Assembly: GCA_017461565.1 (NCBI GenBank)
Contig: JAFTXQ010000008.1
Span: 1 to 33,611, forward strand
Source of the DNA: Oscillospiraceae bacterium
GTDB lineage: Bacteria > Bacillota > Clostridia > Oscillospirales > Ruminococcaceae
Length of the DNA stretch: 33,611 nucleotides
Reading direction: 5' to 3'
Numbering within the stretch: the first letter of the stretch is position 1; every line of letters begins with the position of its first letter. Below the pieces are notes generated by a model, which saw nothing but the letters and a program-made list of their open reading frames with translations, did no database searches and was not told the DNA's origin. This document shows, piece by piece, positions 2,287 through 18,115 of this stretch. A program made the position numbers and the translations under genes.

Positions 2287-2305
2287 TTCATTTCCTCCTT
2301 ACTTA

Positions 2306-2334
2306 TTGACTATTCGGTGTTAGTGTGGTATAAT
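2306..2334 (+). promoter_or_regulatory. Rightward promoter toward the XRE regulator
   Basis: TTGACT (2306-2311) and TATAAT (2329-2334) are separated by 17 bp. The predicted start near 2341 gives a leader of about 147 nt that runs through the opposing leftward promoter and both palindromic operator candidates before the GTG at 2488. Confidence 0.7.
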
Positions 2335-2386
2335 TTATACACAAAAGTCAGCGAACAATAACTTATAGTGTATCTTTACCAATTTT

Positions 2387-2415
2387 ATTATAATCCACTA
2401 TGAGTGACTTGTCAA
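2387..2415 (-). promoter_or_regulatory. Consensus leftward promoter for the HTH-repA unit
   Basis: On the minus strand TTGACA (2410-2415) and TATAAT (2387-2392) have a 17-bp spacer, a perfect sigma-A consensus. The predicted start is near 2380, about 39 bp from and pointing into the rightward start site. Confidence 0.8.
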
Positions 2416-2447
2416 CACTTTTAAGTGATTTTAGATAACTTAAAAGT
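2416..2447. promoter_or_regulatory. Twin palindromic operator candidates
   Basis: CACTTTTAAGTG (2416-2427) and ACTTAAAAGT (2438-2447) are two ACTT-N2-AAGT palindromes. Their centres are 21 bp apart, two helical turns. The first touches the -35 box of the leftward promoter. They are likely sites for the adjacent XRE protein; this is inference. Confidence 0.55.
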
Positions 2448-2487
2448 GACTTTCGTGAATTATGCACAATGTTTCAGGAGGTTTTCT

Positions 2488-3192: not shown

Positions 3193-3323
3193 GTACAATT
3201 TATTAAATGCAAAAGTTCGTATCTGGTGTAAATTGGATGCGAGCTTTTTATATATGCGATTGCGTTTTGGGTTATGTATATGAAAACAAAATAAGGAATT
3301 ATTTGAAAAATTTTATTATCATA

Positions 3324-3352
3324 TTGACTTATTTCGCTTGAACGAATATAAT
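3324..3352 (+). promoter_or_regulatory. Promoter of the restriction-modification operon
   Basis: TTGACT (3324-3329) and TATAAT (3347-3352) are spaced 17 bp. The predicted start near 3359 leaves a 30-nt leader before the TTG start codon of the methyltransferase. The rest of 3193-3388 is AT-rich with no other feature seen. Confidence 0.75.
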
Positions 3353-3388
3353 ATTTATAGGCATACATTGATTATGGGGTGATTTAAT

Positions 3389-4840
3389 TTGAATAATTAT
3401 ATAACAGTTCAAGAGGCAGCACAAAAATGGAATTTGACGCCAAGGCGTATTCAGATATTGTGCAACGAAGAGCGTATTGAAGGAGCGGTTAGAGTAAGCA
3501 GAGTTTGGTTAATCCCAGCTTCTGCTCCTAAACCAGCTAGACAAACCAAAATAGCGAAAAACGAAAAGAGACAGACTACTATAAATGTTCTTTCGCTTTT
3601 TTCAGGTTGCGGCGGAATGGATTTAGGTTTTGAGGGCAATTTCGAAGTCCTTTCAAAGTCTGTAAATAAAGCTATAAATCCTCATTGGGATATTACTCCG
3701 ATTGATGCAAATTGGGTTAAATTGCCTAAAAACCGTTTTCACACTGTTTTTGCTAACGATATACGAGAAGATGCCAAAAAGGCTTGGACAAACTATTTTG
3801 GTTCTAGAGGAATAAGCAGTTCAACATATTGTCTTGATAGTATTGTTGACCTTGTAAAATTACATAAGGAAAACGGTGTAAAGATATTTCCTAAAAATGT
3901 CGATATCGTAACTGGTGGCTTTCCTTGTCAGGATTTCTCCATTGCAGGAAAAAGATTAGGTTTTGATTCTGATAAAAGCCATAAAGGAAAAACACTTAAC
4001 GATGACACACCAAGCATTGAAAGCAGAGGACAGTTATATATGTGGATGCGTGAAGTAATAGCGATTACGCAACCCAAAATGTTTGTTGCCGAAAATGTAA
4101 AGGGACTTGTTAATTTAGGCGATGTAAAATCCATTATCGAACACGACTTTAGCACTATTGGTGGCGATGGATATCTTGTAGTAAGTGCAAGAGTTCTGCA
4201 CGCTGCTGATTATGGTATACCGCAGTCAAGAGAGCGTGTCATTTTCTTTGGCTTTAAAAAATCCGCATTAACAAAAGAGGCAATTCGTGCTCTGTCATCG
4301 GAGTGTATTCCCGCCGATTTCGACCCTTATCCGTTAATTACGCACGCTTATAATAACAATGATGAAAGTTTACTACCTCCGGTAACATTAAGACAAGCTT
4401 TCGTAGGTTTGGATGAGCCACATAAATCATCCGATATATCTCAACAGAAATACTCAAAAGCGAAATATATGGGTAAACATTGTCAAGGGCAAACAGAGGT
4501 TAAGTTAGATGGAATTGGCCCTACCATACGTTCTGAACATCACGGAAATATCGAATTCCGTCGATTAAGCGCAGAGCACGGTGGAAAAAATATTGATGAA
4601 TTAAAAAGCGGACAAGAAGAAAGACGACTTACAATTCGCGAATGCGCACGTATTCAGACTTTCCCAGATAACTATTCTTTTGTGTTCAAGAATAAGGAAA
4701 CGGGTGCAAGTGTATCGGCTTCAGAGGCTTATAAACTAATAGGAAATGCAGTGCCACCGTTGTTAGGATTTCATATAGCAAAACGCTTGGAATTGTTATG
4801 GGATAAATATTTTGGAGGAAAAAACGATGATAATTTCTGA
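3389..4840 (+). CDS. DNA (cytosine-5) methyltransferase, type II modification enzyme
   Basis: A 483-residue enzyme that methylates cytosine C5 in a specific DNA site using S-adenosylmethionine. Motif I is LSLFSGCGGMDLGF (69-81); motif IV has the catalytic Cys180 in GGFPCQDFS; motif VI is AENVKGL (234-240); motif VIII is QSRERV (279-284); motif X is IGNAVPP (451-457). The variable target region lies at roughly 300-410. The first 45 residues form a separate helix-turn-helix (TVQEAAQKWNLTPRRIQILC), unusual for a minimal enzyme and possibly autoregulatory. It starts at TTG with GGGGTGA upstream. Its end overlaps the endonuclease start by 14 bp. AT-rich codon use suggests transfer. The target sequence cannot be inferred. 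Confidence 0.92.
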   Translation: MNNYITVQEAAQKWNLTPRRIQILCNEERIEGAVRVSRVWLIPASAPKPARQTKIAKNEKRQTTINVLSLFSGCGGMDLGFEGNFEVLSKSVNKAINPHWDITPIDANWVKLPKNRFHTVFANDIREDAKKAWTNYFGSRGISSSTYCLDSIVDLVKLHKENGVKIFPKNVDIVTGGFPCQDFSIAGKRLGFDSDKSHKGKTLNDDTPSIESRGQLYMWMREVIAITQPKMFVAENVKGLVNLGDVKSIIEHDFSTIGGDGYLVVSARVLHAADYGIPQSRERVIFFGFKKSALTKEAIRALSSECIPADFDPYPLITHAYNNNDESLLPPVTLRQAFVGLDEPHKSSDISQQKYSKAKYMGKHCQGQTEVKLDGIGPTIRSEHHGNIEFRRLSAEHGGKNIDELKSGQEERRLTIRECARIQTFPDNYSFVFKNKETGASVSASEAYKLIGNAVPPLLGFHIAKRLELLWDKYFGGKNDDNF

Positions 4841-5900
4841 AAATAGAAAGCCACCGCTTGAGGCGTTTCGCGAATTGATGAGCAAAACAGATGAAACGCT
4901 TAACGCCGAATCTGCAGGAAAAGAAAAGTATTATAGCGGTCGTAACGGTACGCAGCTTGAGGAGGATGTTTGTGATGCATTAACAAGATGTGCCGTAAAT
5001 ACCCCTTTTGAGGGCACAATTCAGTTAGTTTCTGGTGCGTCCTTTCCCGATATTGTTGCAAGCAAGTATTATGGTGTAGAGGTAAAAAGCACGAACAAAA
5101 ATCATTGGAAATCAATAGGCAGCAGCATTTTAGAATCAACAAGAAATCAAAGCGTAGAAAGAATATTTCTTACATTCGGAAAGCTGGGTGCGCCTATAGC
5201 GTTCAAAAGTCGTCCTTACGAGGAATGTTTGTCCGGTATTTCTGTTACCCACTATCCAAGATATCAGATTGATATGGAACTAGGTGTTGGTGAAACCATA
5301 TTTGATAAAATGGGCGTTCCTTATGATACATTACGAAAAATGGATAATCCGGTTGCGCCTGTCTCCCAGTATTATAAAAAGAAACTAAAACCAGGTGAAA
5401 GTTTATGGTGGGCAGCTGATGCAGATGTAGAAGAAACTGTTGCACCTCCTACCGTAAAGCTTTGGAGTGCATTAACTCCAGAAGAAAAAAATATATACAC
5501 GGTTAAAGGATATGCGTTATTTCCGGAAATACTTACTCCAAACAGCACAAAGAAATATCAACGCTATGCTCTTTGGCTGGCGACACATTGCGGTATTATA
5601 AACACCAATATTCGTGACCAATTTTCTGCAGGAGGGCGTGTTGATATTATTACAGACAAAGGTGTGTATGAAAAAATGCCTGCTGCATTTGGTCGCATCG
5701 TAAAATACAAAGATTTAATAATTGATACCCTCATTACAGAGAATTCTGAACTTTTGAAAGAATATTGGGAATTGCTTGATAGTGTTCCCGAAAATCGTAT
5801 TCTCTATTGGTGTCAGTTAGCTGCGTTATCGGCAGGTAAGAGTTCGAAAGATAATTGCAACGATATGTACTGTATGCTCCGAACAATTTTTAACGTATAA
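4827..5900 (+). CDS. Type II restriction endonuclease, PD-(D/E)XK fold
   Basis: A 357-residue protein encoded directly after, and overlapping, the cytosine methyltransferase. An acidic helix (GTQLEEDVCDAL, 41-52) precedes FPDIVA (73-78) and YYGVEVKST (81-89). Asp75, Glu85 and Lys87 fit the PD-x(9)-ExK nuclease signature, with Glu45 or Glu46 as the helix acid. The C-terminal 200 residues have no motif I recognise and probably carry DNA recognition. The ATG at 4827 has GGAGG 8 bp upstream and is preferred to the TTG at 4812. It presumably cuts the site protected by the methyltransferase. Family and specificity are not recognised. Confidence 0.8.
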   Translation: MIISENRKPPLEAFRELMSKTDETLNAESAGKEKYYSGRNGTQLEEDVCDALTRCAVNTPFEGTIQLVSGASFPDIVASKYYGVEVKSTNKNHWKSIGSSILESTRNQSVERIFLTFGKLGAPIAFKSRPYEECLSGISVTHYPRYQIDMELGVGETIFDKMGVPYDTLRKMDNPVAPVSQYYKKKLKPGESLWWAADADVEETVAPPTVKLWSALTPEEKNIYTVKGYALFPEILTPNSTKKYQRYALWLATHCGIINTNIRDQFSAGGRVDIITDKGVYEKMPAAFGRIVKYKDLIIDTLITENSELLKEYWELLDSVPENRILYWCQLAALSAGKSSKDNCNDMYCMLRTIFNV

Positions 5901-5917
5901 AGCAACAAGCGAATTGT

Positions 5918-5955
5918 ATTGAAAAAATCTGCATATATATGCAAAAATTTTCAAT
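5918..5955. terminator. Long AT-rich hairpin after the endonuclease
   Basis: ATTGAAAA (5918-5925) pairs with TTTTCAAT (5948-5955), and the centre is a TGCATATATATGCA palindrome. It starts 18 bp after the endonuclease stop. It is a plausible transcript end or 3' stabiliser, but lacks a G/C-rich stem and clear U-tract. Confidence 0.45.
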
Positions 5956-6157
5956 AGAACTTCATCAAACTAAATCGCAATTTACCAAATCACGATTAGA
6001 TAACAGTGCAATCTCAAACTTGTTGCCGCACCGAATTTTTTACCCCCATTTTTTACTGCAACAAACACGCATAATCCCCACCCACCTTCATAAGAAATAC
6101 ACTCATAATACACAACTGAAAAGAAAACCGCATTGATAAAGGCTTTTTTGAGCCGTC

Positions 6158-6366
6158 CAGTTGCTGTTGAAGAAGCGATGAAGTAAGCAGCGTTTCGCTG
6201 CACCAAATTCCGCCTGACGGCGGTAGCTGATAATAAACAAGATTGAACACGTCATTTGCGAGAAATCATGATGACGTGTTCAATTTGTTTTTGAACGAAA
6301 AGTCAGAATGGATGCGGTGTTATGCAGAAAATGAAGATGCGAGACCTCTCAAATAATCTTACTTTA
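6158..6366 (+). repeat. 209-bp direct repeat, copy 1 (integrase leader)
   Basis: Matches 13613-13821 over 209 bp without gaps and with about 7 mismatches by eye. It contains three consecutive hairpins: GCAGCG/CGCTGC, CCGCC/GGCGG, and a perfect 14-bp inverted repeat (6242-6255 with 6271-6284, loop 15) followed by a T-rich stretch. It ends with the ATG and first 15 codons of a tyrosine integrase. It could be a terminator-protected leader or a recombination site. The stretch 5956-6157 before it holds nothing I recognise. Confidence 0.85.
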
Positions 6367-6390
6367 CTTAATGAAGTAGATTTTCCTTAA
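6322..6390 (+). pseudogene. Integrase remnant: first 15 codons only
   Basis: ATG at 6322 begins MQKMKMRDLSNNLTL, identical to the start of the integrase at 13777. After codon 15 the sequence diverges and stops at TAA 6388-6390. This is a truncated 5' end, so either recombination occurred within the integrase gene or the element ends here. Confidence 0.7.
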
Positions 6391-6410
6391 CATGGTATAA
6401 ATATGGAAAA

Positions 6411-6444
6411 TCCGCTGAACCTTAATTAGAAAAGGTTCAGCGGA
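6411..6444 (-). terminator. Terminator of the leftward operon ending at 6532
   Basis: A perfect 13-bp stem (6411-6423 with 6432-6444, loop 8) is followed on the minus strand by TTTTCC and AT-rich sequence. It lies 88 bp beyond the stop of the last leftward gene. Confidence 0.65.
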
Positions 6445-6531
6445 CGCTGATGCCGATACTACGCTACAACAGATTATTAGTCCAAAGGATTTTTAGATAT
6501 TGTTTTGATGTTTGAGATTGGTATTGATAAT

Positions 6532-6750
6532 CTATTTTTTAAAACGAATGATAATGCATACTATTCCAATCACTGCAAGAACAAATCCAATTATCAGAAA
6601 AATTACCATTTTTCGTTTCATTTGTGTGTAATGTTCCGGTGAACCATCAAGCAGATGATAATACCCAAACCTATTGAGTGCAGCAAATAACAAAGATAAA
6701 ACGCATACAATTATACATATAATACCAATAATTAAAAGTGTTTTTTTCAC
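6532..6750 (-). CDS. Small two-helix membrane protein
   Basis: A 72-residue protein with two hydrophobic segments: residues 4-25 (LLIIGIICIIVCVLSLLF) and 48-69 (MVIFLIIGFVLAVIGIVCII). They are separated by a short polar loop with HLLDGSPEHY. Lys/Arg residues at both ends fit a helical hairpin in the membrane. The start is GTG at 6748 with a GGGGGG run just upstream. It is the last gene before a leftward terminator, 92 bp downstream of the LRR-like gene. Family not recognised. Confidence 0.6.
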   Translation of the reverse strand: MKKTLLIIGIICIIVCVLSLLFAALNRFGYYHLLDGSPEHYTQMKRKMVIFLIIGFVLAVIGIVCIIIRFKK

Positions 6751-6842
6751 TGTCCCCCCCTATTCAAACATAAAGCTTCTTTATTACCATCCATGCAGGC
6801 ATTGTGTCACTGCCTTTTCAAGATGATCTTAGTGTCATTACC

Positions 6843-7484
6843 TTATCGCTTGGCATAACTACGGAGAAATGCTTCCAGCTCCTTGTTCTTCATTATCTGC
6901 TCAAAATATGCCTCAGGCATCATATCTGCAAATTCTTCTAAAGTGCAGCCTTTGTGAAATTCCTCAGGCATATCTCTTGTAAACTCACCGCCCATGGTAT
7001 TTCCTGCCGAGATGCCCTGACAGAAATCCTCGTACAGCAGCGACATCTGACCGCTCTCCTCAAAATGCAGCGTTATCGTCCTGGATTCACAACGCTCCTC
7101 ATTGCGCCGTATTCCGAGGTAGATATCCTTGTGGATGAACAGCAGGCCGTTTTTCTCGGCAAACCATTCTGCATAAGTATCGTAACCGCCACGGATGATG
7201 ACCTGGTTGTTCTTCAGCAGTTCTATAAGCTCATTTGTCATTTCAATGTTCTCTACGGTACTGTCGATGATAAGCTCTTTCAGACCGATGAACGATTCGA
7301 GAAAGCCTTTTTTTACCTCTGTAATACCGTCTTTGAAATAAAGGCGGGTGTATTCCTGTGTCCAGTTTTCCTTGCCGATATCGGTGTCCTCTTTGCATAG
7401 TGCACCTTTACCCTCAACAAGCACAGGCTTTCCCCAAGTAAAAAAATATGTGATATTGTTGTTGTGTCTGGAATAATACATCAT
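6843..7484 (-). CDS. Hypothetical protein with LRR_5 (BspA-like) segment
   Basis: A 213-residue protein without signal peptide. Residues about 50-120 (DGITEVKKGFLESFIGLKEL, then VIIRGGYDTYAEWFAEKNGL) resemble BspA-type leucine-rich repeats, where a repeat ends in a GYxxSxAExYAxxNG-like cap. The remainder has no recognised domain; the C-terminus is acidic and helical. Tandem ATGs at 7482 and 7479 follow AAAGGAG. It starts 9 bp after the lipoprotein stop, so the two are an operon. It may act in recognition or be a degenerate LRR protein; function unknown. Confidence 0.6.
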   Translation of the reverse strand: MMYYSRHNNNITYFFTWGKPVLVEGKGALCKEDTDIGKENWTQEYTRLYFKDGITEVKKGFLESFIGLKELIIDSTVENIEMTNELIELLKNNQVIIRGGYDTYAEWFAEKNGLLFIHKDIYLGIRRNEERCESRTITLHFEESGQMSLLYEDFCQGISAGNTMGGEFTRDMPEEFHKGCTLEEFADMMPEAYFEQIMKNKELEAFLRSYAKR

Positions 7485-7493
7485 TGTGCTCCT

Positions 7494-8867
7494 TTATCCA
7501 TGTGCTGGCATACCGTCAGCACCTACCGCAAAGATATCATTGCCCTCGGATACTCCGCCGCCTGCGCCATCTCCGAAGATATCAAAATGCATACGGTCGG
7601 GGTCTGTCGGGACAGTCGATACTCCGTCGTTGTAATAGGGTGTGACATTTGCTTCGCCGACCTTGCTTATTGCTCCGCCCGAGATGTTATAAACATAAAG
7701 ATACATCTGTGTCTCAAGCTCCGTAAAAAGATACAGATAGTGCTTGCTGTCAGCGGTCTTTATATAGTACGGCTCGCATGAGTATGCCATAAAGCTTTCG
7801 GAATAGCTGTTATCTGCCGTACAGATATCCACGGACGCATTGTTATCCTCGTCATAGCGGTCGTAAATGATAAGCTCCTCACAGCTTCCGTCGCCGTCAA
7901 GGTCTGTATAGAACATGTACTTCATCGGCAGGGAAACTATATAATCATCGGAGACAGCCATGTATTTCTCATTGAAAAGCTCAGGGTGCTCCGCAAATGT
8001 AACTGTAACATCCATACCGCCAATGCCGATGTCAGCGATCTCACCCTCGTCGAAATACATGGTAACTCCATTATAATCTATCGTCCAGTGTGTGCCGTCT
8101 GCACCGTACATCTCAAAATATTCCTTGATAATACCATCGTTGTAGAAAACATCTTTGCCTACTGTGCCGAAAAGCCGATCTTCAACAGCCTGTGTAAATG
8201 CGTCCATATCCGTTACGATATCGGGGAGATGAAGCTCCTCGCCCGTCTGAGTATCGTAATTGCTGGCCCAGAAGCTTCTGTGACCGCCGTTCATTCCATT
8301 ATCATAATGGCAGTCAGTAAGCACGCTCAGCACAATACTATCTGCACGTCGTACCTGTGCGTCAAATTTTGAAACGAGCGGTGCCTGAAGTTCCATACCC
8401 ATACCGATCATTTCATCGACAGCCTCAGAGAACATTTCATATTCGTCTTTAAGGCTGCTTTCCTCGGCATCTGCAGCATCCATCAGCACAGCTGCAAGAG
8501 CCGGGAAGCGGTCTGCATCCTCGCCGCCAAGAATAACAGATGTACATTCACACTCTACCAGCGGCATAGCGGTGTCCTCGGACCATCTGTATTCAAACGT
8601 TGTCCTTTCGTTGAGTTCGAGTATCTGTACTTCCTTTTCAACAGGGACATCGTCGTTCGGGTTTTCAGACATAGTATTTGTTGTAGTTGTGCTTTCTGCG
8701 GTCTGTACGGTCGCTTCAGTCTTTGAACTGCTTTCAGCTGTTGCTGCAGAAGTAGTCTGCGAAGAAGCTTCGGATGTGCTATCCGTAATGATTTCGGTAT
8801 CACCGCTGCATCCTGCCGCCGCCAGCAGCACACAGAGCGTTAATACGAGTCCTGTAAGTCTTTTCAT
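7494..8867 (-). CDS. Lipoprotein with RsiV/DUF3298-like domain
   Basis: A 457-residue exported lipoprotein. A signal peptide ends in the lipobox LLAAAGC (Cys20), followed by a Ser/Thr/Glu linker (about 21-75). Residues about 80-290 resemble the DUF4163/DUF3298 pair of RsiV-type proteins: a strand-rich start, then HYDNGMNGGHRSFWASNYD and TGEELHLPDIV, as in DUF3298. The region after 290 contains YTDLDGDGSCEELIIYD, a calcium-loop-like repeat seen in FG-GAP/VCBS proteins. In B. subtilis RsiV binds lysozyme, but here no sigma factor is adjacent and the anti-sigma part is missing. AAAGGA ribosome site present. Exact role unknown. Confidence 0.7.
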   Translation of the reverse strand: MKRLTGLVLTLCVLLAAAGCSGDTEIITDSTSEASSQTTSAATAESSSKTEATVQTAESTTTTNTMSENPNDDVPVEKEVQILELNERTTFEYRWSEDTAMPLVECECTSVILGGEDADRFPALAAVLMDAADAEESSLKDEYEMFSEAVDEMIGMGMELQAPLVSKFDAQVRRADSIVLSVLTDCHYDNGMNGGHRSFWASNYDTQTGEELHLPDIVTDMDAFTQAVEDRLFGTVGKDVFYNDGIIKEYFEMYGADGTHWTIDYNGVTMYFDEGEIADIGIGGMDVTVTFAEHPELFNEKYMAVSDDYIVSLPMKYMFYTDLDGDGSCEELIIYDRYDEDNNASVDICTADNSYSESFMAYSCEPYYIKTADSKHYLYLFTELETQMYLYVYNISGGAISKVGEANVTPYYNDGVSTVPTDPDRMHFDIFGDGAGGGVSEGNDIFAVGADGMPAHG

Positions 8868-8889
8868 AGGTGTGTTCCTTTCTGCAAAT

Positions 8890-8922
8890 AAGGGCGAAGG
8901 GTTTAATGACCCATTCGCCCTT
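8890..8922. terminator. Bidirectional hairpin between leftward genes
   Basis: AAGGGCGAA (8890-8898) pairs with TTCGCCCTT (8914-8922), with T-rich flanks on both sides (TTTTT on plus, TTATTT on minus). It lies in the 78-bp gap between the 199-residue gene and the lipoprotein gene, probably ending most transcription from upstream. Confidence 0.65.
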
Positions 8923-8945
8923 TTTGGATGTCTTATGTTACAACA

Positions 8946-9545
8946 TTACGCCCAGGGATCGTCTGCCACAGGAACACGGATATCCGCAAGGCACTGAATA
9001 TCATTCAGGAACCACTGACCCGTAGACGGCTTCTTTCTCAGCTTTATGGGACGGGGATTATCCGCGCCGCCGCTTGTAACATAGAGAGTTGCCCAGTTCT
9101 CCTCGTCAAAGGAGTAGGGATTCTCGCTGACCTTTATGACAAAAGGAGTGTCAGGCTTGTAGCCGTTTTCGGGTGTTGCTCCCTCGAAGAAAGAAAAGGT
9201 CTTGTAGAATTTACCGTTCAGACGCTCCTTGATAAAGCCCTTTTCGTATGTACTTACCTCTGCAGGACCCTTGAGGAAGTTAAGCATCTCTATGCAGGCG
9301 TCGGGATTCTTTTCATAAGCACAAAGAGCAACGATGGTAAGTGCGGTTGTCTTGAATGCGGAGTCAAGAGTAGCCTCGGGAAGTGCCTGAAGCTCCGCTA
9401 CACTTTCAGGAAGTGCTGTAAAAGTAAAGCTCTCGGAACGGTTGCTGCCCTTGCCTACCGAGGAAACAGCATCGTTCACAGCTTTTGCCGCTTCACGCTT
9501 TACTGCGTGTTCTGCTGATTTCATAAGCGAATCAAATAATCCCAT
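8946..9545 (-). CDS. Conserved hypothetical cytosolic protein (DUF6935-like)
   Basis: A 199-residue protein without signal peptide or membrane helices. It starts MGLFDSLMKSAEHAVKREAA, an amphipathic helix, then has a helical core with the cysteine-containing ALCAYEKNPDACIEMLNFL, and a C-terminal beta-rich part (TPFVIKVSENPYSFDEENWA) ending WFLNDIQCLADIRVPVADDP. This C-terminal pattern fits what I recall as DUF6935, common in clostridia; the label is tentative. AAGGAGG at the end of the upstream gene gives a good start, and only 3 bp separate the two genes, so they are co-transcribed. Function unknown. Confidence 0.65.
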   Translation of the reverse strand: MGLFDSLMKSAEHAVKREAAKAVNDAVSSVGKGSNRSESFTFTALPESVAELQALPEATLDSAFKTTALTIVALCAYEKNPDACIEMLNFLKGPAEVSTYEKGFIKERLNGKFYKTFSFFEGATPENGYKPDTPFVIKVSENPYSFDEENWATLYVTSGGADNPRPIKLRKKPSTGQWFLNDIQCLADIRVPVADDPWA

Positions 9546-9548
9546 TTT

Positions 9549-10007
9549 TTAGTCCTCCTTGATAAATCTGAAGTTCATAAAATTAAAAAAGCCGTTTTCG
9601 TCAATTGGCTTTATCCAGCTGCTGACTTCCTCGTCATAGACCTCGCCCCCGATGCCTGTGTCGAACCAGAATTCTCCGTCACGAAGCTCCCAGCTTTTCG
9701 GGTCATCCGCAATTGCGCCGTCCACAAGCTTGATAACGCCTGCGGCAACAGCCTTATCTACCTCCGCTTGTGTAACTCCCTCAGGGAGAGGCGACAGCAT
9801 ATAAAGCTTTCCGTCCTCGCAGATCTTGATAAATGTATCTGCCATCCTCCTGCGTTCCCTCATCTCATCCGCAACTGCCTCCTCGTCGGTTTCGTCGACG
9901 TAGGGCATAGGGGAGTCGAGATATTCCTCGGGAGTGAGATAAACTGGCATATTGTCGTCATCAAAGGTCATGACGGAATGTAGTTTCCATTTTCCTGTGT
10001 AGGTCAT
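9549..10007 (-). CDS. Small acidic cytosolic protein, lipocalin-like
   Basis: A 152-residue acidic protein. It begins MTYTGKWKLHSVMTFDDDNM, resembling the first strand of a calycin/lipocalin-like barrel (GxW), and ends WIKPIDENGFFNFMNFRFIKE. The middle has an acidic helix (VDETDEEAVADEMRERRRMA) and a Met/Leu strand. The ATG at 10005-10007 has AAAGGAG 9 bp upstream; the longer in-frame extension to 10328 lacks a ribosome site and overlaps the divergent gene, so it is rejected. It is first gene of the leftward unit with the 199-residue protein. Function unknown. Confidence 0.65.
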   Translation of the reverse strand: MTYTGKWKLHSVMTFDDDNMPVYLTPEEYLDSPMPYVDETDEEAVADEMRERRRMADTFIKICEDGKLYMLSPLPEGVTQAEVDKAVAAGVIKLVDGAIADDPKSWELRDGEFWFDTGIGGEVYDEEVSSWIKPIDENGFFNFMNFRFIKED

Positions 10008-10038
10008 ACTTTCTTCTCCTTTGCTGTTTTTGTCAATC

Positions 10039-10067
10039 TTGACTAAATCAGTGCAATATGCTAAAAT
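10039..10067 (+). promoter_or_regulatory. Candidate promoter for the solute-binding protein gene
   Basis: TTGACT (10039-10044) and TAAAAT (10062-10067) are spaced 17 bp. The predicted start near 10074 would leave a leader of about 215 nt that begins with a 9-bp hairpin (10081-10089 with 10104-10112). Confidence 0.5.
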
Positions 10068-10215
10068 AAATAGATGGGCGGTTCCTGTGACTGTTGGCGC
10101 ACCCACAGGAACTTCAAGCACCCGTAACGAGGCAGGATATATACTCTCTTTTACCCTTGCAGGTATTATTCTATCAAAAATAACGCTTTTCCACACTACC
10201 CTAATAATAAAAAAC

Positions 10216-10272
10216 GGGTAGGAAAGCTGAAAAAATATGCAGAATTGGGTAGGAAATCGGGTGGGATACCCG
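10216..10272 (+). promoter_or_regulatory. Repeated GGGTAGGAAA words and hairpin before the SBP gene
   Basis: GGGTAGGAAA occurs at 10216-10225 and 10247-10256, 31 bp apart (three turns). A small hairpin CGGGT/ACCCG follows at 10258-10272. They are candidate binding sites for the downstream LuxR-type regulator; inference from position only. Confidence 0.4.
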
Positions 10273-10288
10273 TACAGAAAGGGAATAT

Positions 10289-11659
10289 ATGATGAAAAAG
10301 ATAATATCTTTAATATTAGCTTTAGCAATAAGTTCAGTCTGCCTGTCAGGCTGTTCAGATAAGACTAAGCCTGACGCCGACCACCCCGTGACACTTACAA
10401 TGTGGCATGTTTACGGCAGTCAGACAAGATCTCCCCTAAATGACGCAATCGACGAATTCAATGATACTGTCGGCAGACAAAACAGCGTTACGGTGAATGT
10501 TGTGTCGGTAACGAGCTCCTCTGCGATCGACAAGGCTCTTTCCGCCTCGGCAAACGGTGAGCCGGGTGCAGAGGAACTGCCCGACCTGTTTACCGCTTAT
10601 CCGAGAGTAGCGGAGATCGTTGGAGAGGACAAGCTCCTATCGTGGAACAACTACTTTTCAGAGGAAGAGCTTTCCGCTTTCAGAGATGAATTTATTTCCG
10701 AAGGGTATTTCGGCGACAGATTGCTTATGCTTCCTGTTGCCAAATCCTCCGAAGGCTTATTCCTGAACAAGACTCTGTTTGACAGATTCAGCGCCGAAAC
10801 AGGTGTATCGACCGATACGCTCAAAACCTTTGACGGCTTTTTTGGAGCAGCAAATATCTATTACGACTGGTCAAATGGTCAGAATTTCACACAGATAAAC
10901 GATTTTTATAACTACGCTTATATCGGAATGAAAGCCTGCGGCAGTGAATTTATCAAGGACGGTAAGCTGAATCTGAACGACAATGCCTTTGAACAGGTAT
11001 GGCTTCCATTGAGCAAAGCGGCAATATACGGCGGAATATGTCTTGACGACGGATACGCAGCTTCACGCTGGAAAACCGTTGAGATCATCTCCAATATAGG
11101 CTCAACAGCCGATATTCTTTATCAGCCTGAAATGGTGTTCTATCCTGACAACACTACCGAAAATATTACTTCGGTTTCACTGCCTTATCCCGCCTTTATT
11201 GAGGACAAGCCTGCCGCAGTACACAGAGGCGGTGGACTTTTTGCTGTAAAAAGCGATGATGAACGCAAAAATTACGGTGCATATATCTTCGCAAAATGGC
11301 TCACCGAAAAAGAAAATAACCTGAGCTTTGTTACAAGCACAGGATATCTCCCTGTTACGGATGATGCTTTTACGGAACTTTTTGCCGATACAAGCGTTGC
11401 TAAAAATGAAAGCTATCGAAATCTTTATGATATGATGAATGATATGATGGATAGCTTTAGGCTTTATTCTCTCCCCGTTTATAGCAATGCTTCGGATATT
11501 CAGAGCGATTTCGAGCAGAATGTAAAGCTGGTGCTGAGATCCACACACAACCAGTATGTTGAACGGACAGCAAACGGCGAGGACAAGGAAGCTGTGCTGA
11601 ATGAGCTTGCCGCAGTCTCCCTTGAAGAATTGAAAAAGCTTTCTGAAAAGGACATGTGA
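10289..11659 (+). CDS. Extracellular solute-binding lipoprotein (sugar type)
   Basis: A 456-residue lipoprotein. The signal peptide ends LSGC with Cys22. The mature part starts with VTLTMWHVYGSQ, the first strand of family 1 carbohydrate-binding proteins. Other family features are LPDLFTAYPR, LPVAKSSEGLFLNKTLFDRF (strand plus helix after the hinge), GGGLFAVKSDDERKNYGAYIFAKWL and STGYLPVT. It should bind a sugar or oligosaccharide at the outer face. No permease is adjacent; instead a membrane-bound LuxR-type regulator follows 10 bp later, which suggests that it presents ligand to that sensor. Tandem ATGs at 10289 and 10292 follow AGAAAGGGA. Confidence 0.85.
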   Translation: MMKKIISLILALAISSVCLSGCSDKTKPDADHPVTLTMWHVYGSQTRSPLNDAIDEFNDTVGRQNSVTVNVVSVTSSSAIDKALSASANGEPGAEELPDLFTAYPRVAEIVGEDKLLSWNNYFSEEELSAFRDEFISEGYFGDRLLMLPVAKSSEGLFLNKTLFDRFSAETGVSTDTLKTFDGFFGAANIYYDWSNGQNFTQINDFYNYAYIGMKACGSEFIKDGKLNLNDNAFEQVWLPLSKAAIYGGICLDDGYAASRWKTVEIISNIGSTADILYQPEMVFYPDNTTENITSVSLPYPAFIEDKPAAVHRGGGLFAVKSDDERKNYGAYIFAKWLTEKENNLSFVTSTGYLPVTDDAFTELFADTSVAKNESYRNLYDMMNDMMDSFRLYSLPVYSNASDIQSDFEQNVKLVLRSTHNQYVERTANGEDKEAVLNELAAVSLEELKKLSEKDM

Positions 11660-11669
11660 GGGTACCGCT

Positions 11670-13328
11670 ATGAATATGCTAAGACACCTTGACATCAGGA
11701 GCCTTGTAAAGCAGTTCAAAGAGGAAGGCTTGTCGATGCGCAGAAGATTTGCTTTCTATGTTTTTTCTGTAATCTGCCTGTTCCTTGCAGTAATTATAAT
11801 TCTGCTGAACCTATTCGGCATTCTGAATCCTACCGACAGACAGATAATGAACGACCTTAATGCACAGCTTTCTGCCTGCTCGGACAGTATCGAGAGTGAC
11901 TGCGATGAGCTTGCGGCTTGTGCAATATCCTTTTCGGGACAGCTTTCGGATTCTATACAGAACTATCTGACTGAGAATAATATCAGCTTCGATGAGCTGG
12001 AAAACGATTCCGAAGCGCTTGACGCCTTACAGAACAGGCTTTACGACTCGGTCTACCTTAATATGCAGGTTGCCCCCGCAAGCGGCGCATTCTATATTCT
12101 TGATACCACGGCAAACAGCAATTCCAAAACTCCGCTTTACAGCGGAATTTACCTGAAATACATCAATCTTTACTCCGAAAATACCGTAAACAATGATTTC
12201 TCCATTTACAGGGGCTCATTCTCTACAGGAAAAAGCAGGGGGATAAATTTCCACAGCGGCTGGAAGAATGAGAGCAGTACCCGTTTTTTTGAACACTGCA
12301 ACGAGACCTTTTCAGACGGAACACATTATGTTTTAAGTCCCACCGTTTCCATCCCCGATACATGGGAAAGGGCTAGGTACATTTATGTTCCCATTCGGGG
12401 TCATAACGATATTATTATCGGGGTCTGCGGCTTTGAAATAAACGACCTTTTGTTTCAGCTGTCATACAAGACTGAGAACGGACGCTGGGGAGATGTGACC
12501 TGCGGTCTGCTTGACGAAAGCGATGGGATATATTCAGGGCAATTCAGCTCAGGGCGTTATAATAATATCGGAAATGAGTTAAATATCTCAAATAAAAAGG
12601 ATTCACAGCTGTTTGATTTCGGCAACGAGAAATGCGTGGGGATGACAGAGAGGATTAAGCTCGGAAAAGAGACCTTCAGCATTGCTGTTATGCTACCGAA
12701 AACACAGTATGAAAGCTTTCTGCGTAAAGGGCAGATAAATATTCTGCTGATCTTTCTGATCGCGGCAATTCTCGCTGCTGTCTGCTGTGTTTTCATGAGC
12801 AAGAAGTATGTTTCTCCCATTCTGAAAAAGATCGAACAGGTCAAATCAAAGGAGGACTATGGCGAGCAGCTTCGTATCCGTGAAATAGACGACCTTTTTG
12901 CTTTTCTTGAGGAAAAGGATAATTACTACGAACAGCAGCTTGATGACCTTGAAAATGCAAAGAAATTCGCTGAAAACGAGGCCCAAAAAGCAAAGCTGGA
13001 ATACGAAAAGGCAGCTGAAAAATACGAGCTCGCCAAAAGCGAGATCGACCGTCTTGCCGAAAAGCACAAGGAAGAGATCGTTCCTGAAGAATATGATTTC
13101 TTTGTGGAAAACCTTGGCATGCTAACTCCGACTGAGCATAGGGTATACGAGCTGTATCTTTCAGGAAATACTGCGAAGCAGATCGCAGAGATCCTTCATA
13201 TTACGGAAAATACGCTTAAATATCACAACAAGAATATTTACAGCAAACTTGGCATATCCTCACGCAAGCAGCTGCTCCGCTTCGCCGCCTTGAAACAGCA
13301 CAGGGATGGCAAGGAGGACTGGTCATAG
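11670..13328 (+). CDS. Membrane-anchored LuxR-type regulator with extracellular sensor
   Basis: A 552-residue one-component receptor. A short cytosolic N-terminus precedes TM1 (27-51), then a 300-residue extracellular domain (about 52-352) with a helical start and Cache-like strands (GAFYILDTTAN, RARYIYVPI, IIIGVCGFEIN). TM2 is 355-376. A cytosolic coiled coil (about 410-470) leads to a C-terminal LuxR/GerE helix-turn-helix (484-545: LTPTEHRVYELYLSGNTAKQ, then IAEILHITENTLKYH and IYSKLGISSRKQLL). No kinase or receiver domain is present. It lies in one transcription unit with the solute-binding protein, so it probably senses that protein and switches nearby sugar genes. It is cut off from the ABC operon at 14560-18115 by the integrase remnant. 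Confidence 0.85.
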   Translation: MNMLRHLDIRSLVKQFKEEGLSMRRRFAFYVFSVICLFLAVIIILLNLFGILNPTDRQIMNDLNAQLSACSDSIESDCDELAACAISFSGQLSDSIQNYLTENNISFDELENDSEALDALQNRLYDSVYLNMQVAPASGAFYILDTTANSNSKTPLYSGIYLKYINLYSENTVNNDFSIYRGSFSTGKSRGINFHSGWKNESSTRFFEHCNETFSDGTHYVLSPTVSIPDTWERARYIYVPIRGHNDIIIGVCGFEINDLLFQLSYKTENGRWGDVTCGLLDESDGIYSGQFSSGRYNNIGNELNISNKKDSQLFDFGNEKCVGMTERIKLGKETFSIAVMLPKTQYESFLRKGQINILLIFLIAAILAAVCCVFMSKKYVSPILKKIEQVKSKEDYGEQLRIREIDDLFAFLEEKDNYYEQQLDDLENAKKFAENEAQKAKLEYEKAAEKYELAKSEIDRLAEKHKEEIVPEEYDFFVENLGMLTPTEHRVYELYLSGNTAKQIAEILHITENTLKYHNKNIYSKLGISSRKQLLRFAALKQHRDGKEDWS

Positions 13329-13612
13329 ATGGCGTTATGACACATTAAATATTGGTGGGTGAAATGACCGGTTTCATACAAAGTGATCCGTTGCTTCTTC
13401 TCAAAATATCGCTGTATCGGCGCAAGGTTTGAAATGACATTTCACCGTGGCAAACGCAGCATTACATATAATTCGAATACAACAAATAGCTCTGTAATAC
13501 TATTTCAGTTGTGTGCAAATTCACAAGATAAAGAGCGGTAATGGAACGCCATAAAATCGCCTGTGAAGGTGGGCAACATTTTCACGGGCAGTGTTGCCAT
13601 TGTCTTCCTGCG
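13329..13612. other. Intergenic stretch with inverted repeats
   Basis: No gene. GGTGAAATG (13358-13366) is the reverse complement of CATTTCACC (13438-13446), and TGAAATGACATTTCA is itself palindromic. A 7-bp hairpin GGCAACA/TGTTGCC (13572-13578 with 13592-13598) lies before the 209-bp repeat. No clear terminator for the regulator gene was found. Confidence 0.4.
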
Positions 13613-13821
13613 CAGTTGCTGTAGAAGAAGCGATGAAGTAAGCAGCGTTTCGCTGCACCAAATTCCGCCTGACGGCGGTAGCTGATAATAAACAAGATTG
13701 AACACGTCATTTGCGAGAAATCGTGATGACGTGTTCAATTTGTTTTTAGGCGAAAAGTCAGAAAGGATGCGGTGTTATGCAGAAAATGAAGATGCGAGAC
13801 CTCTCTAATAATCTTACTTTA
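13613..13821 (+). repeat. 209-bp direct repeat, copy 2 (integrase leader)
   Basis: Second copy of the sequence at 6158-6366, same length, about 97% identical by eye. It holds the same three hairpins, including the perfect 14-bp inverted repeat (13697-13710 with 13726-13739), and ends in codon 15 of the integrase fragment. Direct orientation means recombination between copies would remove a 7455-bp circle. Confidence 0.85.
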
Positions 13822-14241
13822 GCAGAGGGTCAGGATGAGTATATCAGGGATTGCAAGGTCAGAAATCTAAGAGAAGGAACTATCAAGCATTGGAAGGATA
13901 TGTTCACGAATATGTCACATTACATTGACCCCGACACGCCGATTTCTGATCTTGATGAAAATATAATGCCTGAATTTATCCTTGCCCACCGAGATAAAGA
14001 ATTATCAGATATGGCACTATACACCTATTGCCGTGACCTACGCACTCTGTTATATTTCTTTATGAAACAGGGCTGGTTAAGAGAATTTAAGGTGGAAGTT
14101 CCAAAATGCTCTAAAACCCCCGTAGAAACCTATACAGACGAGGAATTAAGTCTACTTCTCAAAAAGCCTAATGCCAAGGCTTATGCGAACGACGCTTGGC
14201 AGGTGGCTTCGGGTACTGTTTACGGAACTCCCGTGGCATGA
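13777..14241 (+). pseudogene. Tyrosine-type integrase, N-terminal fragment
   Basis: A 154-residue reading frame. Residues about 15-110 form the SAM-like core-binding domain of tyrosine recombinases (EYIRDCKVRNLREGTIKHW, TYCRDLRTLLYFFMKQGWLR). YTDEELSLLLKKPN (about 116-129) leads to the catalytic domain in relatives, but here the family sequence stops at residue 129 and an unrelated 25-residue tail follows. The catalytic R-H-R-Y set is absent, so it cannot recombine DNA alone. Full-length relatives have about 300 residues. It reads out of the 209-bp repeat and is probably the relic of an integrated element whose 3' part was deleted. Confidence 0.75.
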
Positions 14242-14529: not shown

Positions 14530-14559
14530 CGTTTTTTCACAGATATCTCAACCAGAGGA

Positions 14560-15435
14560 TTAACCCTTTACTGCACCCAGAGTTACACCACCGATGATGA
14601 ACTTGGAAAGGCAGAAGTAAACGATCATTACGGGCAGGATGGAGATTGTGATAACCATGTAGATATGACCCATGGAGATGGACGCATAGTCCTTACAACG
14701 CCACATGTAAACCATGATAGGCAGTGTCTTCATCTCTGTCTTTGTGATCAGCAGGTTGGGAGTGAAGTAGTTGTTCCAGGACGAAACGAATGTGAAGATC
14801 GCCTGTACAGCCATAGCAGGCTTGAGGATAGGCAGAATGATCGAGTTGAATGTCCTGTACTCGTTAGCGCCGTCGATACGAGCAGCCTCAACGATGTCGA
14901 TGGGCAGCGAGCTGTCCATGTACTGCTTCATGAAGAAGAATACTGTGGGAGCTGCGATAGCGGGAACGATAAGGGGGATAAGGCTGTTCAGCAGACCCCA
15001 GCTTCTCATCATGTCAACGAAACCGAGAGCGGTTACCTGTGTAGGAATTGTCATGATAAGGAGGATGAAGTTGAATGCGAACTTTCTGCCCTTGAAGTCG
15101 TATACGTGGCAGCCGTAAGCTGTCATAGCGGAGAAGTATACGGAGCAGAACACTGTGCCAACAGAAACGATGATGGAGTTGAGCATACCCTTCATCAGAG
15201 GGATGTTAGCATCTGTTGCAACAGCTGTAAAGTTAGAGATAAAAGAAGTGCTTGGTAAGAACGCAAGACCGGCTCTCTGGATCTCGTTATGTGAACGTGT
15301 ACAGTTGATCAGCATGATGTAGAAGAAGAACAGACACAGGATACACATAAGTGTCAGACCGATGTAAGCCACAGTACGTCTGAAATTGAGCCAGAATTTT
15401 CTTTCGTTGGTAACAACATCATATTTTCCTGCCAT
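14560..15435 (-). CDS. Carbohydrate ABC transporter permease, MalG-type
   Basis: A 291-residue inner-membrane permease with six predicted helices, the first at about 15-40. The EAA loop reads EAARIDGANEYRTFNSIILP (about 184-203), which docks onto the transport ATPase. The C-terminus ends IIGGVTLGAVKG, typical for the MalG/AraQ family. The start ATG has AAGGGGGTG upstream and lies 3 bp after the stop of the MalF-type gene, so the two are translated together. It forms the channel with that partner for uptake of a sugar or oligosaccharide; the substrate is not deducible. The operon lacks an ATPase, so a shared MsmX/UgpC-type ATPase encoded elsewhere is probable. Confidence 0.92.
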   Translation of the reverse strand: MAGKYDVVTNERKFWLNFRRTVAYIGLTLMCILCLFFFYIMLINCTRSHNEIQRAGLAFLPSTSFISNFTAVATDANIPLMKGMLNSIIVSVGTVFCSVYFSAMTAYGCHVYDFKGRKFAFNFILLIMTIPTQVTALGFVDMMRSWGLLNSLIPLIVPAIAAPTVFFFMKQYMDSSLPIDIVEAARIDGANEYRTFNSIILPILKPAMAVQAIFTFVSSWNNYFTPNLLITKTEMKTLPIMVYMWRCKDYASISMGHIYMVITISILPVMIVYFCLSKFIIGGVTLGAVKG

Positions 15436-15438
15436 AGC

Positions 15439-16476
15439 TTACACCCCCTTCTTTTTCTTCTTAGCCGCAAAGGACTTTGCACCGCCGAGAGTTCTGTCGG
15501 TGAAGAAGTAGTATACGATAAGGCTGAATGCAGCACAAACGATGAACAGGATAACAGAGATGGCACCTGCTGCACCGTAGTTCTTGGAGTACAGGTTGTC
15601 GTTCAGGAACATGATAAGGGTCTTTGTAGTACCGTTAGGTACGCCGATACCGCTTGTAAGTACCTGGGGAACGTCGAACATCTGCAGACCGCCGACCAGA
15701 GATGTGATGAACACATATACAAGGATGGGGCGGATAAGGGGCATTGTGATCTTCCAGAAGATCTGGTTGGGTGTACAGCCGTCGATGTCAGCAGCCTCAA
15801 CCAGAGACTCGTCAACACCTAGCATTGCAGCCATCAGCATGATGGTGGTGTTACCGAACCACATGATGAAGTTCATAAATGCAATGATTCCGCGAGCGGA
15901 CCACTGGTTAGCAAGGAAGTCGATCTTTTCGGTAGTTGCGCCGATAGAAAGAAGCATATTGTTGATGGGAGCTGTCTCAGTGTTAGCAAACAGAGAGAAC
16001 ATCAGCAGAGAGAACGCAGAAGCCATGATAAGGTTCGGCATATAAATGATAGACTTGAATATGCTTGTGCACTTCAGATCCATTCTCTTGTTTGTAAACC
16101 AGTAAGCAAACAGAAGAGATACAGCAAGCTGAGGGATAAAGCCCATCAGCCACATGATAACCGTATTGGAGATCAGATTCCATACAGGAACGCCCTTTGC
16201 ACCGGTAAAGAAGTTTATGTAGTTCTCAAAACCGATGAAGTTGGGTCCTACCTGATCAAGACCGATACGATAGTTTTCAAAGAAGCTATTGTATACTGTG
16301 GTAATCAGAGGCCACAGGGAGAATATCGCATACGCAATAAAGAACGGTGCGATAAAGAAATAGCCCCACTTCGCATAGCTTATAGACTTGCGTTTCACAG
16401 GAATTTCACCATCACTTTCATGTTTTTTCTCGGCCAGCTCAACATCCGAAGCCGCCACACGCACAGGCGGCCCCAA
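15439..16476 (-). CDS. Carbohydrate ABC transporter permease, MalF-type
   Basis: A 345-residue permease. A polar N-terminus with KRKSISYAKW precedes the first membrane helix (about 33-57). The EAA loop is EAADIDGCTPNQIFWKITMP (about 226-245). The C-terminal FTDRTLGGAKSF with a Lys-rich tail is usual for MalF/UgpA-type proteins. The start is uncertain: the frame opens at TTG 16474-16476 without a good ribosome site, and GTG codons at 16462-16464 and 16456-16458 are alternatives. It lies 133 bp after the binding-protein gene, separated by a stable hairpin, and 3 bp before the MalG-type gene. Confidence 0.9.
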   Translation of the reverse strand: MGPPVRVAASDVELAEKKHESDGEIPVKRKSISYAKWGYFFIAPFFIAYAIFSLWPLITTVYNSFFENYRIGLDQVGPNFIGFENYINFFTGAKGVPVWNLISNTVIMWLMGFIPQLAVSLLFAYWFTNKRMDLKCTSIFKSIIYMPNLIMASAFSLLMFSLFANTETAPINNMLLSIGATTEKIDFLANQWSARGIIAFMNFIMWFGNTTIMLMAAMLGVDESLVEAADIDGCTPNQIFWKITMPLIRPILVYVFITSLVGGLQMFDVPQVLTSGIGVPNGTTKTLIMFLNDNLYSKNYGAAGAISVILFIVCAAFSLIVYYFFTDRTLGGAKSFAAKKKKKGV

Positions 16477-16569
16477 GGTATGTTAATACCGATTTACCAT
16501 AAAAAATTACATTTCTATACAGCAAAATGGCATTAACATACCGGACTGCGAGTTTTACCCCGCAGTCCG
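16477..16569 (-). promoter_or_regulatory. Intercistronic hairpins between binding protein and permeases
   Basis: CGGACTGCG (16542-16550) pairs with CGCAGTCCG (16561-16569) with a 10-nt loop and no U-tract. GGTATGTTAAT (16477-16487) pairs with ATTAACATACC (16532-16542). Such stems between binding-protein and permease genes often protect the upstream mRNA and lower permease expression; that role is inferred. Confidence 0.55.
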
Positions 16570-16609
16570 AAGATGTTAAGTCAGACCTTAATTGCTAAAC
16601 GTTGACTAA

Positions 16610-18115
16610 TTACTCAGCAGGCTTTGTGAGTGCGGGGTACTTAGTAATAACGTTTGTGTAGAAGTTCTCGAGAGCGGTATCGTAATCAACAGTACCATCG
16701 AAGTAGTCCTTCATAGCTGCCTGGAATGTCTCGTTGCAGCCCTGGTCATACTTGCTGATGTTAGACATGTCGATCTTCTTAGCGTTCTCTACGAAGAGAG
16801 CGATGTGGTTCTGGCCGCCAAGGAAGTCAGACTTGAAGTCAGAGTTAGCAACTTCTTCCATAGCTGCCATGTTGTTTGTGTAATCCTCAACACCGGGTGT
16901 TGTTGTGATGCTCTTCATGATCTCGCCGTTGCATGTCAGCTGGTACATAATGTCCTTAACGAGGGAAGCATTATCTGTCATGTAGGAAGCGCAGAGCCAT
17001 GTACCGCCCCAGTAGTATGTCTGAGGACCGTAGCAAACTGCGTAGTCGCCGAATGCACCGTTGCCTGTGCAGTGCTCAAGCCACTCAGCAGAACCCTGAG
17101 CCATGCCATCCGGAACCTTAGTAGCGAGAGAGTTGCCGAGCAGTGTGAAGTTGATACCCCATGTGGAGTAGAAGAAGCCGAATACCTTACCGTCGGGACC
17201 CTGGTCAGCAGCCCAACCATCAGACCACAGACCGTTCTTGTTGTTGAAGCCCTTGTCTGTGAAGTTCTTGGTCTGCTCTACCCACTTGAGGATGTTCTCG
17301 TCGATGATGATCTCGTTCTTGTCGTTTACCCAAGGAGCGGAAACGTTGTTGGAGAATGTACGGTAAGCATCGTCGTAACCGGAGAGCATGAAGTAACCGT
17401 TGTCCTTCATTGTCTGAGCGGTCTCTTCGAACTTATCCCAGTCAGCTACGTACTCCTGAACTGCATCGGGATCGTCTGTACCGAGAACCTTCTGAGCGAT
17501 GGAGCGCTTGTAAGCGAACAGACCGGGAGCTGCCTGCCAGGAAACTGCCTTCAGGTCGCCGTTAGCGTCTGTAGCGATAACCTTTGTGTACTCGTACATC
17601 TCAGCTGTATCAGCGTCTGTAATACCTACAGCGGATACGGGCAGAGAGTACTCAGAGTTAACGTACTTGTCAGCGTAGTCAGCCTCGATAAGGAAGATAT
17701 CGATTCTGTCATCAGCTGCTACGTTCTCCTGATCCTGCAGAGCAGCATCGAGGGGGATCTGGTAACCGTTATCCTTGTTGGGGTTGATTGTCCACTTAAC
17801 AAGAACGTCACCGATCTTACCTGTGCCGTCGCCGTTGTCAACGTAGTCAGGATAGAAGTCCTTAACACGGCTCTGGAACTCGTCATTCCAGCACCAGATG
17901 TTGAGAACCTTACCATCATCGGGAACTGTAACAGTGTCGCCGCCTTCAGTGTTGCCGCCTGTGGAACCGCTGTCGTTGCCACCTGTGGAACCGCTGTCAG
18001 TGTTGGATGTGTTGCCGCTGTTGCCTGCGTCGCTGCCGGATGTGTTGTTGGAGCAGCCAACTACAGACAGAACTGTAGCAGACGCGAGGAGCGCTGCTAA
18101 AACTCTTTTCTTCAT
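16610..18115 (-). CDS. Sugar ABC transporter substrate-binding lipoprotein
   Basis: A 501-residue lipoprotein. The signal peptide MKKRVLAALLASATVLSVVGC gives lipid-anchored Cys21, followed by a low-complexity Asn/Ser/Gly/Thr linker (about 22-62). The mature domain starts LNIWCWNDEFQSRVKDF (family 1 first strand and helix), with further family features such as DIFLIEADYADKYV, AVSWQAAPGLFAYKRSIA and a Trp-rich middle (FGFFYSTWGINF, YYWGGTWLCASYM) suited to sugar stacking. The start ATG has GGGAGG 9 bp upstream; an in-frame upstream ATG at 18226 is rejected for lack of a ribosome site. It is first gene of the importer operon, and its biased codons suggest high expression. Confidence 0.9.
   Translation of the reverse strand: MKKRVLAALLASATVLSVVGCSNNTSGSDAGNSGNTSNTDSGSTGGNDSGSTGGNTEGGDTVTVPDDGKVLNIWCWNDEFQSRVKDFYPDYVDNGDGTGKIGDVLVKWTINPNKDNGYQIPLDAALQDQENVAADDRIDIFLIEADYADKYVNSEYSLPVSAVGITDADTAEMYEYTKVIATDANGDLKAVSWQAAPGLFAYKRSIAQKVLGTDDPDAVQEYVADWDKFEETAQTMKDNGYFMLSGYDDAYRTFSNNVSAPWVNDKNEIIIDENILKWVEQTKNFTDKGFNNKNGLWSDGWAADQGPDGKVFGFFYSTWGINFTLLGNSLATKVPDGMAQGSAEWLEHCTGNGAFGDYAVCYGPQTYYWGGTWLCASYMTDNASLVKDIMYQLTCNGEIMKSITTTPGVEDYTNNMAAMEEVANSDFKSDFLGGQNHIALFVENAKKIDMSNISKYDQGCNETFQAAMKDYFDGTVDYDTALENFYTNVITKYPALTKPAE

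Follow-up and report, generated by a model that had tools for sequence, protein, structure and literature searches.

A 209-bp direct repeat in an Oscillospiraceae genome as the left end of islands that insert at the 3′ end of GGGtGRT

The 209-bp direct repeat that brackets a 7455-bp segment in this genome forms the left end of islands of one family that insert at the 3′ end of the gene GGGtGRT. We consider it highly probable (roughly 0.88 on our own estimate) that these are site-specific islands that stack at that gene end, and that the window, by which we mean the whole stretch of 33,611 nt analysed here (contig JAFTXQ010000008.1 of assembly GCA_017461565.1, Oscillospiraceae bacterium; all positions are 1-based within it), holds a composite of three islands, A, B and C, the first of them from an unrelated family.

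Copy 1 (6158–6366) and copy 2 (13613–13821) of the repeat align without a gap and differ at exactly 7 of 209 positions (about 97% identity), which bears out the sequence-only reading that had counted about 7, and the same pair was also picked up by a repeat finder. The edges are sharp, with only 1–5 of 10 bases agreeing per 10-base step outside the copies, and a search of the 2.19-Mb, 19-contig genome found no copies beyond these two. Three hairpins can be read in the unit (6187–6201, 6210–6223 and 6241–6292 in copy 1), the last with 14 perfect pairs in its stem, just as that reading had described them. The repeat ends after 45 nt of an open reading frame that starts at 6322 in copy 1 and 13777 in copy 2; the claim that it stops exactly after codon 15 of an integrase is exact in copy 1, and the 129 integrase codons credited to copy 2 become about 135, as homology to the intact integrase of a relative, SIG524, reaches 14182. 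An Rfam scan of the window at gathering thresholds gave no match, and a tRNA was rejected as the insertion target, there being none in the window. The features of the window are as follows.

1–6157, no strand: right part of island A, of a different family, a putative integrative mobilizable element (matches to islands at loci L050 and L051)
1098–2060, minus: RepA-like AAA_25 ATPase of island A (PF13481, 2e-33; 49% identity to L051)
2425–3192, plus: HTH regulator of island A (PF13443; 43–46% identity to L050/L051)
3389–4840, plus: C5-cytosine DNA methyltransferase (PF00145, 1.8e-52; PADLOC MTase_II)
4812–5900, plus: type II restriction endonuclease candidate (PADLOC REase_II, 5.6e-35)
6095–6113, plus: AATACAC present twice close to the right end of island A, resembling the TAATACAC arrays with which islands of that family begin on the left
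6158–6186, plus: GGGtGRT gene tail, copy 1, insertion core (VAVEEAMK-stop)
6158–13612, no strand: island B, decayed, 7455 bp, between two gene-tail copies (repeat copies and gene tails)
6241–6292, plus: conserved hairpin and T-run, copy 1, probable terminator (model R1, 69.2 bits, a training sequence; covariation)
6322–6366, plus: tyrosine integrase start, first 15 codons, rest lost (repeat alignment)
6843–7484, minus: cargo open reading frame with no match in the Pfam scan
7494–8867, minus: cargo putative lipoprotein (lipobox read from sequence; Pfam match below cutoff only)
8946–9545, minus: cargo DUF6935 protein (PF22043, 4.4e-55)
10289–11659, plus: cargo extracellular solute-binding protein (PF13416, 1.7e-20)
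11670–13328, plus: cargo protein with LuxR-type HTH (PF00196, 2.9e-15; membrane sensor part read from sequence)
13568–13612, plus: island B right end, 45 bases (homologous to the sequence before SIG524 gene tails 2 and 3)
13613–13641, plus: GGGtGRT gene tail, copy 2 (sequence match to the tail)
13696–13747, plus: conserved hairpin and T-run, copy 2 (model R1, 69.8 bits, a training sequence)
13777–14182, plus: island C integrase remnant, about 135 codons, SAM-like domain only (PF13102; homology to the SIG524 integrase)
14557–28333, no strand: host chromosome with a sugar ABC transporter, carboxylase and scpAB block (gene order as in contig C93 of genome G303)

The first 29 bp of the repeat are the 3′ end of a host protein gene, ending AVAVEEAMK-stop, and this gene is GGGtGRT (Pfam PF14057, E 1.4e-190). 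Upstream of both window tails the reading frame is not that of GGGtGRT (frames of 25 and 24 codons), and each copy therefore joins a gene tail separated from its gene to a tyrosine integrase leader. The repeat begins at an insertion junction; the hairpins and first integrase codons that come after the tail appear to belong to the island itself, as its left end. Because 13568–13612 is homologous to the right ends in SIG524, copy 2 marks a junction between one island's right end and the next island's left end. The earlier suggestion that two related elements had inserted here proved right, with an unrelated third element to be added on the left. No third gene tail is present in the window at up to 3 mismatches to the 29-bp pattern. 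With a looser 16-bp pattern the window yielded 10 matches, a number not reached in any of 100 shuffles; apart from the two known copies these were not taken as cores, since each carries 2–3 mismatches and they are scattered. A search with the whole 209-bp unit matched 6 of 297 family genomes: this genome twice at full length, four others over bases 1–25 to 1–38 only, and one over bases 75–136.

The closest relative is the MAG SIG524 (contig SVMX01000007.1), in which GGGtGRT is followed by three left ends in tandem. The first comprises the complete gene, the leader and an intact integrase of 310 aa with its catalytic domain (PF00589, 3.5e-29); the second, 12.7 kb from the first gene tail, consists of a right end, the second tail and an integrase truncated near codon 72; and the third, 5.5 kb past the second and 18.2 kb from the first, has the tail and hairpins, with no integrase detected there. 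This array, together with the target-gene association described below, disfavours a plain segmental duplication in which an integrase promoter region was copied with no site-specific insertion. Two 97%-identical copies on one contig would suit such a duplication, but the repeat starts with a gene tail used as insertion core by islands of other genera, and SIG524 shows the same type of junction again, making this explanation very improbable. It is likewise hardly credible that the repeat is an assembly artefact: the 19-contig genome does break near the region, yet the two copies differ at 7 places, their flanks differ, and a similar arrangement lies within a contig of another genome.

Integrase and target are associated in all the close relatives found. 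Seven intact integrases of this kind were found (SIG524, L011, L012, L055, L056, L057 and L058), the six others sharing 48–60% identity with that of SIG524, and all 7 lie at GGGtGRT or its tail, directly after the gene or, in L055, after its last 31 codons. The available flanks of 11 more distant integrases (L013 and L060–L069; at most 39% identity in one comparison and 41% in another) contain GGGtGRT in 0 of 11 cases, and none of those loci has the conserved hairpin considered below. In a tree of 22 sequences, including four still more distant integrases whose genomes carry GGGtGRT on another contig, the seven GGGtGRT-site integrases form one clade (99/98), present in 97% of 200 bootstrap trees. 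As regards a possible phage origin, matches to the integrase occur in 150 phage records, all below 60% identity and at 23–30% among the 10 matches listed, and viral contigs yielded one partial match at 40%.

The largest hairpin is common to 13 left ends, found in the window, in SIG524 and in eight further genomes, as a stem around ACACRTYAT followed by a spacer of 15–16 nt and a T-run; the examples from G197 and G400 entered the alignment via a regex match, the remaining left ends having been chosen beforehand. Standard pairs fill 98.9% of the 182 pair cells. Both sides have changed in 7 of 14 pairs, a count reached in 1 of 500 shuffles, and the covariation score is reached in 0 of 500, although kinship of the 13 sequences inflates these scores. 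Sliding the partner columns by 1–3 left only 0–1 doubly changed pairs, and further pair types showed no excess over shuffles (394 of 500 as high). The RNA fold of 13620–13760 has a z score of −5.75, with 0 of 200 shuffles as good; a simple terminator scan restricted to loops of 3–8 and no bulge did not list the large hairpin.

Applied to 100 loci of the survey described below, a covariance model of the hairpin gave five strong matches, all 33–81 bp after GGGtGRT, two of them training sequences (L140 and L161) and three from outside the training set (L202, L189 and L163); three of the five loci match on the opposite strand as well. Across 67 further sources the model returned the training left ends and their copies, with one weak match away from the gene, in the right flank of SIG524 (L044, 30.4 bits), and within the genome studied here only the two window copies. 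The hairpin regex matched 3 of 123 loci and nothing in 362,020 bases further downstream, and missed three of the loci found by the covariance model. Given its conservation with compensatory changes and its T-run, the simplest reading is that the hairpin is probably a transcription terminator supplied to GGGtGRT. It could also be a protein-binding DNA palindrome, as compensatory change would appear there too.

A near-complete island of about 6.5 kb in genome G272 (L224) helps to separate gene tail from hairpin. It comprises the gene, leader, intact integrase, regulators and a small serine resolvase, and about 6.5 kb on a second tail (residues 297–332) is followed by a different hairpin and then by argG/argH/argF-like genes (named from sequence), so that target-end repeats are present on both sides; a run of N interrupts the gene end on the near side, and the exact join there is unread. 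Because it carries a different hairpin, the far tail is best read as the displaced native end of GGGtGRT, the conserved hairpin belonging to the island. Furthermore, the tail junctions of G272, G038 and G231 start at one common GGGtGRT codon (about 302), well before the hairpin.

These junctions bear directly on the earlier proposal that the leader is itself a recombination site, which stands for the first 29 bp or so, the gene tail, and falls for the hairpins and integrase start, given the different hairpin at the G272 far tail. In its fullest form, with the whole leader including the hairpin as the site and the 7455-bp segment as an actively excising cassette, the proposal would account for G231, where a segment lies between two perfect 175-bp repeats of tail plus hairpin (the junctions being on separate contigs), and for G400, from the same genus, where a single such unit shares 650 of 691 aligned bases with the G231 far junction and no integrase was detected. 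It would also fit the conservation of the hairpin in sequence, rather than in pairing alone, and its near-constant spacer. However, the G272 far junction is a gene tail without this hairpin, so that the site seems to need the tail only, and the common start of the three junctions lies well upstream of the hairpin. Moreover, both window copies are without an intact integrase and the genome holds no further match to the SIG524 integrase at E 1e-10. Taken together, we find an excising cassette of this kind improbable and prefer insertion at the gene tail. The two states of G231 and G400 are suggestive of one site when occupied and unoccupied, gain and loss being indistinguishable. They also count against stacking by left ends, as a hairpin at the G231 far junction and at the integrase-free site of G400 requires either an older relic or a native hairpin there. 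Small serine resolvases lie near the right ends of the islands in G272 (L224, 4590–5177, PF00239) and, judged from sequence, in G231 (L225, reverse strand, immediately ahead of the far tail).

Left ends with a truncated or lost integrase comprise both window copies, SIG524 tails 2 and 3, contig C37 of G038 (about 28 codons) and G197 (about 48 codons), and the hairpin stands without a detected integrase in G400, G183, G277 and at the G231 far junction. These relics fit islands that keep the part next to the gene while the remainder decays, within a hairpin-based search that relics without the hairpin would escape.

Island B is itself such a relic. It is flanked by attL- and attR-type sites, formed by the tail cores at 6158 and 13613 and the right-end homology at 13568–13612, and is without a functional integrase, its own being cut to 15 codons. 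Neither integrase nor relaxase was found by Pfam in six of its seven cargo frames of at least 70 aa, the six being all but the smallest (6532–6750). It is possible that the island could be excised as a 7455-bp circle.

To the left, the RepA-like and HTH proteins match islands adjoining GGGtGRT in genomes G334 (L050) and G180 (L051), where they have the order and orientation seen at 1098–2060 and 2425–3192 in the window. The L051 island also encodes a convergent tyrosine integrase and a MobV relaxase, both of which look degraded in L050. Together with the two AATACAC repeats left of copy 1, these matches suggest that 1–6157 is probably most of an island of this second family, here with restriction-modification genes; sequence searches of Pfam and PDB returned nothing for the endonuclease candidate at 4812–5900. 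The integrase side of island A would be past the end of the contig, in the assembly gap; neither integrase nor relaxase was seen, as the window does not include the region of the island expected to carry them, and the integrase of the second family, as in L051, has no match in the genome. A type III restriction-modification pair is present at L012 (11213–15459), in an island of the family of B and C, so that restriction-modification genes occur in both island families at GGGtGRT. Within island A, 42-nt inverted repeats (16–57 and 1053–1094, 90% complementary) bracket a TnpV-like frame (62–397) and a second frame (465–944) with a Cass2 match just below cutoff; 16–1094 is possibly a small insertion. 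An AT-rich near-palindrome lies at 5914–5959, near the right end of the island.

A wider survey supports the use of this site by both families. GGGtGRT was matched in 322 of 396 family genomes searched and in 35 of 43 genus genomes, and 123 loci with the gene end were surveyed, 23 from the genus and 100 from the family, the latter hand-picked among the approximately 150 matches listed with some near contig ends left out; at least 1 kb of downstream sequence was available at 118 of the 123. An integrase-like frame lies downstream at no fewer than 11 loci (6 of 23 in the genus, 5 of 100 in the family), which is a lower bound as the profile missed fragments in G300 and in C37 of G038. Nine of these 11 frames are on the opposite strand and so, by orientation, are not of the window's island family. 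At least one TAATACAC is found in the first 200 bp at 12 of 123 loci, compared with 3 of 1754 background blocks, and at least two at 8 of 123, compared with 0 of 1754. The survey points to GGGtGRT as a site at which no fewer than two families of tyrosine integrases insert in Clostridia, and the left-end signature of gene tail, hairpin and integrase start allows decayed islands to be found after the integrase has been lost.

Island C has no right end that we could detect, since no third gene tail was found at up to 3 mismatches in the 29-bp pattern. GGGtGRT itself has a single match in this genome, on contig C5 (8969 bp), which breaks off at residue 209 of the protein, and the likely order is GGGtGRT on C5, a gap containing the island A integrase, island A, island B, the island C remnant and then the chromosome. 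As the C5–C4 junction is unassembled, we infer rather than read the array's place at GGGtGRT in this genome. Gene order on the right was rejected as proof of that placement, because the block resembling 14557–28333 on C93 of G303 is not beside GGGtGRT: its neighbours there are DUF368-like and rnf-like genes (names taken from sequence), with GGGtGRT on a different contig. With that block lying apart from GGGtGRT in G303, a rearrangement must also have happened, and the right end of island C was probably lost as well, by deletion or rearrangement. The presence of rnf-like genes beyond the GGGtGRT island of G180 (L051) is a weak hint in favour of the placement. The SIG524 right flank, the upstream flanks of SIG524 and C5, and the downstream flank of GGGtGRT in G303 matched none of the compared loci at E 1e-25.

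Three further repeats were noted on the right of the window. At 20687–21033 an intergenic family of direct repeats (62–108 bp) lies beside the carboxyltransferase gene, and 18-bp tandem repeats at 25850–26065 encode an Ala/Glu/Pro-rich repeat in a minus-strand frame (25314–26336). The palindrome ACGACCCATGGAAGCTRCATGGGTCGT occurs twice in 28576–28820, and the intervening 28606–28741, perhaps a dispersed repeat, is 90% identical to a stretch of SIG524.

These observations enable us to propose a model for the growth of the array. The tyrosine integrase of each island would insert its element into the 3′ end of GGGtGRT, with a left end carrying replacement last codons and a stop, a terminator-like hairpin and the start of the integrase; because this left end replaces the last codons and stop, the gene would stay whole. 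A later island would then insert at the rebuilt gene end and displace the earlier ones, so that islands would follow one another head to tail, each junction marked by one left end. In older islands the integrase would be lost and the left end kept, probably because it had been the gene's own end and terminator while adjoining it. Under this model selection would have preserved the left end, and the events would have run in the order given. A bolder extension, which we regard as tentative and rather doubtful, is that the end of GGGtGRT is a layered record of insertions with captured terminators, in which a newer neighbour's integrase keeps decayed islands mobile. The system makes it possible to test whether a host gene must retain an end that it received from a mobile element.

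A limited literature search, judged by titles and the starts of abstracts, returned no report of GGGtGRT as an insertion site. PMC5704250 and PMC7563491 describe tandem accretion at gene 3′ ends, CIMEs (cis-mobilizable elements) that keep their att sites and arrangements of the type CIME-IME-target gene; the second places composite islands of Streptococcus salivarius at gene 3′ ends that include those of rpmG, rpsI, fda and rplL. Island A can be compared with IMEs that encode a MobV relaxase: L051 has an integrase, a Mob_Pre relaxase, an AAA_25-like ATPase and an HTH protein, of which island A shares the last two, whereas it is only partly in the window, with its integrase and relaxase not seen. 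For the parent family of island B, the 10 proteins scanned, part of the gene content of four related islands, include no relaxase, and on these proteins the family looks more like a mobile genomic island than an ICE or IME. Such an island is defined, in PMC7563491, by its own integrase and a lack of conjugation signature genes, and the G272 island resembles it in having an intact tyrosine integrase and cargo with no relaxase among 5 proteins scanned. Compared with the composite islands and CIMEs of S. salivarius, the array shares site-specific 3′-end insertion, tandem elements and decayed, integrase-less elements with att sites, and differs in its target, GGGtGRT, and in having no relaxase among the parent-family proteins scanned. 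The composite island is thus of a kind already known, tandem accretion with CIME-like decay, here with another gene as target and a clade of integrases specific for that gene.
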